NCBI GenBank assembly: GCA_017507105.1
Contig: JAFWBM010000034.1
Location: 1-64,000, forward strand
Length of the DNA stretch: 64,000 nucleotides
Direction of reading: 5' to 3'
Source: Bacteroidaceae bacterium
Lineage (GTDB): Bacteria; Bacteroidota; Bacteroidia; Bacteroidales; Bacteroidaceae
Shown here: positions 42,084 to 46,211 of the stretch, in pieces
Layout: each line of letters starts with the position of its first letter
Numbering within the stretch: the stretch's first letter is position 1
The notes under the pieces: model-generated
Seen by the model: only the letters and a program-made list of their open reading frames with translations
Database searches by the model: none
Told to the model about the DNA's origin: nothing
Translations under genes and position numbers: made by a program

Positions 42084-44702
42084 TTATCCCTCGATAATCT
42101 CAAAAACCTTGTCTATGGCAGCCCTAATTCCCTCAGGGTTCTTGCCGCCTGCCTGTGCAAAGTGGGCCTGTCCGCCACCTCCGCCTTGCATCAGCTTAGC
42201 TGCCTGGCCGACAATCTTGCCTGCATTTATACCTTGCTCAACAAGGTCGGCTGTTGCAGAGATAGTAAGTTGTGGCTTGTCATTATGTATGCTGCCTATC
42301 ACAATAAGCAGATTCTCGGGTTGCTCGGCGCGCAACATGAATACAATGTCTTTGACAGTTGCTGCCGAAAGTGGCAAGATTGCACTGATGTAGCGCATGC
42401 CCTTCTTCTCTTTTATCTCAGTAAGTAACTTTTCCTTGGCTGTAGCTGCTTTCTCACGTGCATACTCTTCTATCTCTTTCTTGAGCTCTGCATTCTCTGC
42501 TATAGATTTTATAATGGTTGCTTTTAGGTTAGGAACATTGTTGAATAGAGCATGTATCTCTTTCATAAGTTCCTGTGCCTTGCTCAGATGGTTCTCCAAC
42601 GCCTCACCGGTGATCGCTTCTATACGACGGACACCGGCTGCAACAGAACTCTCGCTTACAATCTTTACCATTCCTATTTCGCCGGTAGCTGCAGCGTGTG
42701 TTCCTCCACAGAACTCTATAGATGAGTCAAATTGTACGACACGTACGTGGTCGCCATATTTCTCGCCGAATAGTGCAATTGCACCAAGTTGCTTGGCCTC
42801 TTCTATAGGTATGTTGCGGTGGTCGGTCAGCGGTATGTTACGGCGTATGCGTGCATTTACAATACGCTCAACCTTTGCAATCTCTTCGTCTGTTACCTTC
42901 TGGAAGTGCGAGAAGTCGAAACGTATTGCATCGGGTGTTACCAATGAACCTTTCTGCTCAACATGTGTACCTAAGACTTCGCGTAGTGCTTGGTCCAGCA
43001 GGTGAGTACAAGAGTGGTTGGCAGCGCATGCTGAACGTTTCTTTGTATCTACCTGTGCCAGGAATGTGGCTGTCGGATCTGAAGGCAGTTTCTTTGTTAT
43101 ATGTATTGGAAGATTGTTCTCTTTCTTGGTATCAATAACCTCTATCTTCTCTTCGCCGCAAACAAGAACTCCGGTGTCACCAACCTGACCTCCGCTCTCT
43201 GCATAGAAAGGAGTATCTTTAAGTACAATATGATATAGGATTTGGTTCTTCTGCTTTGTCTGACGATATTTGAGAATTGTTGTATTGTACTCTGTGTTAT
43301 CATATCCTACAAATGTCGAATCGCCTTCATTTACTGTTATCCAATCGCCGTTCTCTACAGCAGCTGCAGTGCGTGCGCGTGTCTTCTGTTTTAGCATCTC
43401 TTCGTCGAATTGAGCCATGTTTACAGTCAACTCGTTCTCACGCAGGATAAGTTGTGTAAGGTCGATAGGGAAACCGTATGTGTCGTACAATGTGAATGCC
43501 TCTGTGCCGCTTATCTCTTTCTTGTCGGCACTCTTTGCAACCGATATAATCTTGTCGAGCATCTGCATGCCGGTTGCAAGAGTACGGAGGAAAGACTCCT
43601 CCTCTTCTTTTATAACCTTTGTGATAAGCTCTTGTTGCTGCTTTAGTTCGGGATACGCATCGCCCATATTCTCGATAAGCGTGGGAACCAATTTGTACAT
43701 GAACGCCTGCTTTTGCTCAAGGAATGTGTATCCGTAGCGTACAGCACGACGCAATATTCGGCGTATTACATAGCCTGCCTTTGCATTTGAAGGTAACTGT
43801 CCGTCTGTTATAGAGAATGCAATGGTTCTTATGTGGTCGGCAATTACACGCATAGCAATGTCTGTCTGTGCATCGTTGCCATATTTCTTGCCAGAGATTT
43901 CTCCTATAGTCTTTATGATAGGTTGGAATACGTCGGTATCATAGTTCGATTGTTTGCCTTGGAGTGCCATACATAGACGCTCGAAACCCATTCCTGTGTC
44001 GATAACCTTTGCGGGAAGTTCCTCGAGATGACCGTCGGCCATGCGGTTGTACTGCATGAATACAAGGTTCCATATCTCTATCACCTGTGGATGCGAACCG
44101 TTTACAAGATTGCGACCGGGGATGGCTGCACGCTCCTCGTCACTGCGAAGGTCTATGTGTATTTCGCTACATGGACCGCAAGGGCCTGTGTCGCCCATTT
44201 CCCAGAAGTTGTCTTTAAGGTTGCCGTTTAAGATTCTCTCTGCAGGCAGATGTTTCTCCCATATAGCCGCAGCTTCGTTGTCGCGTTCAAGACCCTCGCT
44301 GGCAGCTCCTTCGAATACAGTAGCATAAAGACGATTCGGATCGAGCTTTACAACCTCTGTTAGGTATTCCCATGCCCAATCTATTGCCTCTTGTTTGAAG
44401 TAGTCGCCAAATGACCAGTTGCCGAGCATCTCGAACATTGTATGGTGATATGTATCGTGTCCAACCTCTTCAAGGTCGTTGTGCTTGCCACTTACACGCA
44501 GACACTTCTGAGAATCTGCAACCCTTTTGCTTTTCGCAGGGCTGTTTCCCAATATGATATCTTTAAACTGGTTCATTCCGGCATTGGTAAACATTAGCGT
44601 AGGGTCGTCCTTGACAACCATTGGTGCCGAGGGTACAATAAGGTGTCCCTTCTCTTCGAAGAATCTTTTAAAAGATTCTCTAATCTCTTTTGATGTGAGC
44701 AT
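42084..44702 (-). CDS. alaS: Alanyl-tRNA synthetase
   Basis: An 872-aa class II synthetase that charges tRNA-Ala. The class II core is N-terminal ([17 protein letters not shown], then [30 protein letters not shown], and [15 protein letters not shown]). The editing domain has the zinc-binding motifs [17 protein letters not shown] and [14 protein letters not shown], which remove mischarged Ser and Gly. The C-Ala domain ends with [16 protein letters not shown]. It is complete. The leader (about 96 bases from the inferred start site) holds a palindrome at 44750-44778, and the promoter is interleaved with that of the divergent M23 gene. Confidence 0.97.
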
Positions 44703-44778: not shown

Positions 44779-44801
44779 TAGCCGCTTTTATTCGTTTCAA
44801 C

Positions 44802-44832
44802 TTGCAAAGATAGCTTACTTTTGTTATTTTTG
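44802..44832 (+). promoter_or_regulatory. Predicted promoter of the M23 peptidase gene
   Basis: TTG (44802-44804), a 20-base spacer and TATTTTTG (44825-44832) match the Bacteroidota -33/-7 pattern. The ATG lies 46 bases downstream. It occupies nearly the same DNA as the divergent alaS promoter. Confidence 0.55.
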
Positions 44833-44835
44833 CAA
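44805..44835 (-). promoter_or_regulatory. Predicted promoter of alaS
   Basis: On the minus strand TTG (44835-44833), a 20-base spacer and TATCTTTG (44812-44805) match the same pattern. The elements interleave exactly with those of the plus-strand promoter at 44802-44832. Confidence 0.55.
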
Positions 44836-44877
44836 CAAGTTCATAAATATATATTTATGCTTTAAATACCGAACACT

Positions 44878-45852
44878 ATGCGCAAAGTCTATTATGTATT
44901 CAATCCGACAACCAGAACTTATGACAGGGTATATCCTAACCTTGCCCAACGGTTCCTTACGATTTTGAGGCGCATATTGCTCTTTATTATTTTTGGAGGT
45001 TTGTCATTCCTGATGTTCTATATACTTATTGAGACACCATCCATGAAAGATGTGCAGGATGAGAATTCAAAATTGCTTGCTCAGTATCATATTCTTTCGC
45101 AGCGTCTCGATGAGGCAATGGAGGTACTTGAGGATGTGCAGCAGCGTGATGATAATCTCTATCGTGTCATTCTGAATACCGAACCGGTTTCCAAAGTGGC
45201 ACGTAGTGCCGGATATGGTGGAACAAACCGATATGATGAACTTATGGATATGAGTAATTCCGATCTGGTAGTCCTCACTACTCAGAAAATGGATATGCTT
45301 GCCAAGCAATTGTATGTACAGATAAATTCATTTGATGAGCTTGTGCGAATGAGTAATGAACAAGAGGATTATCTTCGACATCTTCCGGCAATACAGCCAA
45401 TATCCAACCGCGACCTTAAACGTACTGCGTCGGGTTATGGTTATAGGATTGATCCTATTTATAAGGTACGTAAATACCATCGTGGTATGGATTTCTCATG
45501 CGATAAGCGCACACCTGTATATGCTACTGCAGATGGTGTCGTAGAGAGTGCCAAATGGCAACAAGGATATGGTTATACTATTGTTATAGATCATGGCTAT
45601 GGCTATAAGACATTGTATGCCCATCTGCTTGATAAGAAATTTATGGTAAGACGCGGGCAGAAGGTTATACGTGGCGAACAGATTGCCCTGAGTGGAAATT
45701 CGGGAAAGAGTACAGGTCCACATTTGCATTATGAGGTTATAGTAAAGGGGAAACCTGTTAACCCAATCAATTACTATTTTATGGATTTGGATGCAGACGG
45801 TTACGATGAGATGTTGCGCATAGCCGAGAATCATGGACGAATTTATGATTGA
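44878..45852 (+). CDS. Membrane-anchored M23 (LytM) peptidase
   Basis: A 324-aa protein: cytosolic N-terminus, one transmembrane helix (LLFIIFGGLSFLMFYILI, about residues 38-55), a periplasmic coiled-coil (EDENSKLLAQYHILSQR-like, about 60-95), and a C-terminal LytM domain. The zinc ligands are present: H and D in YHRGMDFSCDKRTPVYA, and the second HxH in GPHLHYEVIVKGKPVNP, with GYGYKTLYAHL before it. All catalytic residues appear intact, so it probably cleaves peptidoglycan cross-bridges rather than serving only as an activator. The MerR-like gene follows after eight bases. Confidence 0.87.
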   Translation: MRKVYYVFNPTTRTYDRVYPNLAQRFLTILRRILLFIIFGGLSFLMFYILIETPSMKDVQDENSKLLAQYHILSQRLDEAMEVLEDVQQRDDNLYRVILNTEPVSKVARSAGYGGTNRYDELMDMSNSDLVVLTTQKMDMLAKQLYVQINSFDELVRMSNEQEDYLRHLPAIQPISNRDLKRTASGYGYRIDPIYKVRKYHRGMDFSCDKRTPVYATADGVVESAKWQQGYGYTIVIDHGYGYKTLYAHLLDKKFMVRRGQKVIRGEQIALSGNSGKSTGPHLHYEVIVKGKPVNPINYYFMDLDADGYDEMLRIAENHGRIYD

Positions 45853-45860
45853 TAGATATT

Positions 45861-46211
45861 ATGGCATTAAACAAGGATAAGGATTTAAAATTGTATTACT
45901 CCATTAAAGAGGTTGCAGATGATATAGGGGTGAGTGAATCGACTCTACGCTATTGGGAGAGCGAGTTTCGCCAAATTTCTCCAAAGAAGGGTGCCAATAA
46001 TGTGCGCCGTTATACAAAGGAAGACCTTAAAATGGTACGTTTGGTATATCATCTTGTAAAGGAGCGTGGTTTGACACTAGCTGGTGCAAAACAGTATCTT
46101 AAGAGTGGTGGTGGCTTTGAGACAGCCCGGAAAAACAGTGAGGTTATAGACCGTTTGAAATCCATTAAGGAGGAACTACTAGGGATAAGAGCGGCACTAG
46201 ATACTCTTTAA
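45861..46211 (+). CDS. MerR-family transcriptional regulator
   Basis: A 116-aa regulator. The winged helix of MerR proteins is at about residues 12-80: YYSIKEVADDIGVSESTLRY, WESEFRQISPKK, then RRYTKEDLKMVRLVYHLVKE. A short C-terminal helix (about 90-115) would dimerise; no effector-binding domain or cysteine sensor is present. The ATG at 45861 is chosen over a TTG at 45849 that overlaps the preceding stop. It probably shares a transcript with the M23 peptidase gene. Targets are unknown; this small MerR type is common in Bacteroidales beside M23 genes. Confidence 0.85.
   Translation: MALNKDKDLKLYYSIKEVADDIGVSESTLRYWESEFRQISPKKGANNVRRYTKEDLKMVRLVYHLVKERGLTLAGAKQYLKSGGGFETARKNSEVIDRLKSIKEELLGIRAALDTL

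Follow-up and report, generated by a model that had tools for sequence, protein, structure and literature searches.

A predicted bidirectional promoter between alaS and an M23-peptidase gene, and the spacing of opposed -7 elements in Bacteroidaceae

When two divergent genes are separated by little more than their own promoters, do those promoters form one unit, and does sharing a site tie the expression of one gene to that of the other? The question arises at a locus in the 64,000-nucleotide stretch of Bacteroidaceae DNA analysed here (the window). On its minus strand lies alaS, which encodes an alanyl-tRNA synthetase of 872 residues (42084-44702; PF01411, E 7e-199, with tRNA_SAD and DHHA1). 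On the plus strand, a divergent gene encodes an M23-family peptidase of 324 residues (44878-45852; PF01551, E 1e-33), for which an N-terminal membrane anchor is predicted from the sequence. The intergenic region between them measures 175 bp and contains a short segment with promoter-like elements facing both ways. Downstream of the M23 gene, at 45864-46211 on the plus strand, is encoded a small MerR-type HTH protein (PF13411, E 2e-20) that shows no obvious effector domain and almost always accompanies the alaS/M23 pair.

Elements and geometry of the intergenic site

Housekeeping promoters of the Bacteroidota, read by sigma-ABfr, carry a -33 element TTTG and a -7 element TAnnTTTG (PMC7366714, PMC6847099); a refined form of the -7 consensus is TAHHTTTG, the G of which is numbered -5 (PMC6847099). 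Read directly, positions 44802-44835 form a 34-bp imperfect inverted repeat, TTGCAAAGATA-N12-TATTTTTGCAA, in which 10 of the 11 positions of the arms match around a 12-base centre. Each arm consists of the -33 element of one predicted sigma-A promoter together with the -7 element of the opposite one. The putative M23-peptidase promoter has its -33 element TTG at 44802-44804 (plus strand; assigned from the sequence and the Bacteroidota consensus TTTG/TANNTTTG) and its -7 element TATTTTTG at 44825-44832. For the putative alaS promoter, on the minus strand, the -33 element TTG (CAA on the plus strand) occupies 44835-44833 and the -7 element TATCTTTG (CAAAGATA on the plus strand) occupies 44812-44805; as with the M23 -7 element, these assignments draw on related genomes in addition to the letters themselves. 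Both -7 elements fit TANNTTTG and the refined TAHHTTTG, and they stand 12 bp apart without overlap. On both strands a TTG is found where a -33 element (TTG or TTTG) is expected, some 19-21 bases ahead of the -7 element, with a spacer of 20 bases in each case; the four-letter TTTG form is not matched, the site reading CTTG on the plus strand and GTTG on the minus strand. An initial annotation had placed these four elements and both 20-base spacers, and the letters bear out every one of its coordinates; its description of the segment as a quasi-palindrome and as two sigma-A-type promoters nested in the same 34 bases is likewise supported by the sequence.

Promoters of this type are expected to start transcription ~5 bases downstream of the -7 element. 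Applying the -7 numbering established for F. johnsoniae (PMC6847099), we would expect transcription toward the M23 gene to start at 44837 on the plus strand, giving a leader of ~41 nt, and transcription toward alaS to start at 44800 on the minus strand, giving a leader of ~98 nt. These expected starts lie ~37 bp from each other, and each is 2 bases away from the position guessed earlier (~44839 and ~44798, respectively). A scan of the region with the E. coli-type sigma-70 consensus returned 2 sites against 2.4 expected, that is, nothing above chance, as anticipated for this phylum.

When the 175-bp region was shuffled 20,000 times with its dinucleotides preserved, the full nested arrangement never appeared (0/20,000), both promoters at any position appeared in 0.015%, and a -7 pair at a gap of 11-13 bp in 0.05%; a plus-strand promoter was recovered in 1.8%. 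The whole window contains exactly one -7 pair at 11-13 bp, and across the whole of the window's own genome the gap-12 form with abutting TTG occurs once, at the alaS/M23 locus. The pseudo-symmetry, the overlapping elements for both directions and the shuffles together identify 44802-44835 as a candidate bidirectional promoter.

Sigma-A-type promoter sequences were also noticed within repeats elsewhere in this genome. At G000:C14:109104-110453 (locus L131 9104-10453), ~18 repeats with a period of ~77 bp directly follow genes resembling cas9 (1365 aa), cas1 and cas2, names that we read from the sequence, and the array is apparently a type II-C CRISPR array. Each of its repeats holds a consensus Bacteroidota promoter, TTG N19 TATCTTTG, which suggests CRISPR repeats with embedded promoters. 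At G000:C14:176045-176242, three copies ~83 bp apart, each with TTG-N21-TATATTTG, are possibly tandem promoter-bearing repeats.

Age and loss of the nested arrangement

We gathered loci encoding a relative of the M23 protein from the window's genus and from public genomes, which yielded 86 Bacteroidales loci after removal of duplicates. In 81 of these, the M23 gene is preceded by a divergent alaS; the remaining 5 show no alaS match, and some of them end at a contig edge. The MerR-type gene follows the M23 gene in 78 of the 81 loci, nested or un-nested alike. A locus was scored as nested if the two -7 elements together contained at most one mismatch and were separated by 11-13 bp. Of the 80 loci with a place on the protein tree, 58 have the opposed pair by this measure, among them Bacteroides, Phocaeicola, Parabacteroides, one Tannerellaceae genome and two Muribaculaceae. 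The tree calls for 5 changes of state for nesting, compared with 19.4 when the labels are shuffled, and so few changes indicate that the nested state is probably old, or ancestral, within Bacteroidales.

What has been kept is above all the distance between the -7 elements. From Muribaculaceae to Bacteroides the spacing holds at 11-13 bp despite intergenic regions that vary in length, the full range across loci being 63-408 bp. The -33 letters are far less stable: Bacteroides mostly have GTG or CTG on the plus strand and none on the minus strand, and a minus-strand -33 element at a spacer of 20-21 is kept in the 12 nested relatives from the window's genus and in the two Muribaculaceae, but not in Bacteroides. 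Judged by these letters, only a few clades show two-element nesting in the strict sense. All 58 nested loci keep the -7 element of the M23 promoter, and in most un-nested ones it sits at another position.

Within the clade of the window's own genus, the nested pair is retained in 12 of 33 loci and absent from the other 21, in most of which the two promoters lie well apart. In the whole set, 20 of 22 un-nested loci carry an exact alaS -7 element elsewhere, often ~115 bp from that of the M23 promoter, and the intergenic regions of un-nested loci are mostly longer; thus, both genes usually keep recognisable promoters without nesting. We rejected the idea that all four elements, strictly nested, are conserved as one functional unit, given the variation of the -33 letters and the loss of the arrangement from most of the genus. 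The initial annotation had also derived from the site an obligatory coupling by geometry, and had named loss of one element pair in close relatives as an observation that would refute it; the 21 un-nested genus loci in our comparison across Bacteroidales are such an observation, and an obligatory coupling is not supported. For alaS and the M23 gene alone, the consequence of nesting is probably small, since close relatives manage without it.

Spacing of opposed -7 elements across the family

We counted opposed -7 pairs (CAAANNTA followed by TANNTTTG, exact letters) by gap in 101 genomes of the family, representing 30 genera, with the reversed pattern as control; the counts include orthologous loci of related genomes, and the 101 genomes are not independent. 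Gaps of 0-30 bp yielded 4606 pairs in total, compared with 1579 control matches. A gap of 12 bp stands out, with 384 pairs against 36 in the control, about four times the number at neighbouring gaps: gaps 7-11 together gave 468 pairs (control 211), or ~94 per gap, and gaps 13-14 gave 339 (control 73). Gaps 15-20 fell to 469 pairs, ~78 per gap, against 499 control matches, a control inflated by two genomes of one genus that contribute 206 of the 499. A second preferred range appears at gaps 21-24, with 1295 pairs and 176 control matches. This range lies about one helical turn from 12.

The two genomes behind the inflated control (G050 and G077, of the same family and genus code g8) match the reversed pattern at gaps 15-20 130 and 76 times, respectively, compared with 0-15 times elsewhere; this suggests that a repeat family of their own accounts for the excess.

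The preference for 12 bp is widespread. In 92 of the 101 genomes there are more pairs at gap 12 than the mean over gaps 7-11, in 7 there are fewer, and by genus the count is higher in 29 of 30. Single genomes show the same excess: G090 and G065 contain 11 and 10 gap-12 pairs, respectively, compared with 6 and 8 over all five gaps from 7 to 11, and therefore the peak does not stem from one inherited locus only. In 387 kb of the window's own genome the signal is thin, with 2 pairs at gap 12 and no more than 2 at any other gap. Outside the family, 36 genomes from other families of the class showed no excess: gap 12 accounts for 53 pairs, and gaps 7-11 together for 329 (~66 per gap). Among inspected sites, 11 of 20 gap-12 pairs fell between divergent genes, as did 9 of 20 pairs at gaps 21-24 and 4 of 20 gap 15-20 controls; these fractions are rough, with sites taken roughly in list order from few genomes and genes called crudely. 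On these sequence counts, the gap-12 geometry is preferred across the family at many unrelated loci and is not special to alaS/M23.

A gap of 12 bp corresponds to 20 bases between -33 and -7 elements, as at the alaS/M23 site, and we looked at the letters abutting each pair. TTG abuts 196 of 768 sides at gap 12 (25.5%) and 270 of 2590 sides at gaps 21-24 (10.4%), where it is unable to serve the opposite promoter (Fisher P 1e-23, a value that overstates certainty, as sites are non-independent across related genomes). Gaps 21-24 served as the control in place of the frequency with which CAA follows promoters in the window's own genome, for which the numbers (12/59) were too small. With alaS loci generously allowed for, the difference is still 18% against 10%. 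The enrichment argues that the nested position favours the -33 letters, even if most gap-12 sites go without them. The range of 21-24 bp is equally strong, and hence abutment of -33 and -7 elements is not the only favoured geometry.

We regard it as an even question whether Bacteroidaceae follow standard spacings for divergent housekeeping promoters, with -7 elements ~12 or ~21-24 bp apart, that are absent from other families of the class. Were this so, nested bidirectional promoters would be common in the family and under selection there, their geometry unlike that of the E. coli type with its shared -10 element, and the alaS/M23 site would be one old example of the spacing rule. In a major group of gut bacteria, divergent genes would then often share a single polymerase site, and one could predict both start sites and the genes open to interference when one direction is activated.

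A candidate mechanism, its alternatives and known systems

We think it likely that the 34 bases at 44802-44835 act as a bidirectional promoter built from two ordinary sigma-A promoters of the sigma-ABfr type that point in opposite directions. With the -7 elements 12 bp apart, each -33 element would abut the opposite -7 element, and polymerase carrying the housekeeping sigma factor could bind in either orientation, one molecule at a time. Leftward binding would lead to a start for alaS near 44800, and rightward binding to a start for the M23 gene near 44837. We infer in this way that both promoters are used. The earlier statement that two polymerases cannot sit on the site at once is reasonable in view of footprint size. 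Bidirectional promoters are an established class in bacteria (PMC12825309). At all five E. coli bidirectional promoters tested, basal activity did not suffice for competition between polymerases, which was seen only under strong activation of one direction (PMC12825309). By analogy with these five, alaS and the M23 gene are probably little coupled at basal activity, and would be expressed side by side.

The same geometry can be read quite differently, as a regulatory switch in which occupancy by polymerase in one direction represses the gene in the other, such that alaS and the hydrolase would be mutually exclusive. The ~37 bp from start to start does mean that footprints must overlap, and a strongly activated direction of an E. 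coli bidirectional promoter can repress the other (PMC12825309). Nevertheless, we judge a switch unlikely: most genus loci are un-nested, and these usually still have the two genes as well as an exact -7 element for alaS, the geometry recurs at many unrelated gene pairs, and the tested E. coli promoters did not compete at basal activity (PMC12825309). The same three considerations count against the mutual exclusion of alaS and the M23 gene proposed in the initial annotation, and with it the suggested link from translation to cell-wall turnover. If nesting is so readily dispensed with in the genus, two unrelated promoters might simply overlap by coincidence, their spacing without meaning; intergenic regions at these loci are short, and promoters within them are often close. 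This reading appears still less probable than a switch, as the 11-13 bp spacing stays constant from Muribaculaceae to Bacteroides across varying intergenic lengths, and gap 12 is in excess both over the family and inside single genomes such as G090 and G065.

A further possibility assigns the symmetry to a dimeric regulator, for example the MerR-type protein encoded downstream, with the likeness to promoters being secondary. MerR proteins occupy the stretch between the elements of a promoter and keep the divergent direction blocked (PMC12825309), and both the dyad symmetry of 44802-44835 and the near-constant company of the MerR-type gene would suit such an operator. An operator should then show in the spacer, but 12 dissimilar gap-12 loci conserve just the -7 letters and flanking G/C, with a T-rich stretch between, and a conserved inner dyad was not found among them. 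Moreover, the MerR gene persists at loci without the symmetry, and the same symmetry recurs at other loci. With no conserved spacer dyad, and merR kept where the symmetry is gone, we set a MerR operator aside as unsupported and consider any dimeric-regulator operator the most improbable of these explanations.

A bidirectional promoter made of two opposed sigma-ABfr promoters can be compared with several known systems. It shares with the E. coli bidirectional promoters described by Warman, Grainger and colleagues a short pseudo-symmetrical DNA segment with elements for both directions (PMC12825309); those promoters bind polymerase in one orientation at a time and commonly yield pairs of mRNAs. 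The E. coli type owes its symmetry to a -10 element shared by both directions, and its divergent starts are mostly 18 bp apart, with 10 and 23 also common (PMC12825309), whereas the alaS/M23 site has two separate -7 elements nested with -33 elements, a different sigma factor and expected starts ~37 bp apart. It thus falls outside the E. coli definition, in which the -10 element is shared or overlaps and the starts usually lie 10-23 bp from each other, and is predicted to work like a bidirectional promoter of another type. Divergent promoters, dyad symmetry and a nearby MerR-type gene are also found at the MerR-regulated PsoxS/soxR (PMC12825309); in contrast, alaS/M23 sites lack a conserved spacer dyad, and the MerR gene also stands beside symmetry-free loci. 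Among open-access papers, we found no description of the nested -7/-33 geometry, or of a preferred spacing between divergent promoters, in Bacteroidota. The sigma-ABfr promoter itself, with its -7 consensus and a -33 TTG at a 20-base spacer, is matched in both directions at alaS/M23, but its descriptions treat single promoters (PMC7366714, PMC6847099) and the site presents an opposed pair. Bidirectional promoters as such were already known; what the sequences appear to add is the nested -7/-33 geometry, with starts expected ~37 bp apart, and its family-wide spacing.
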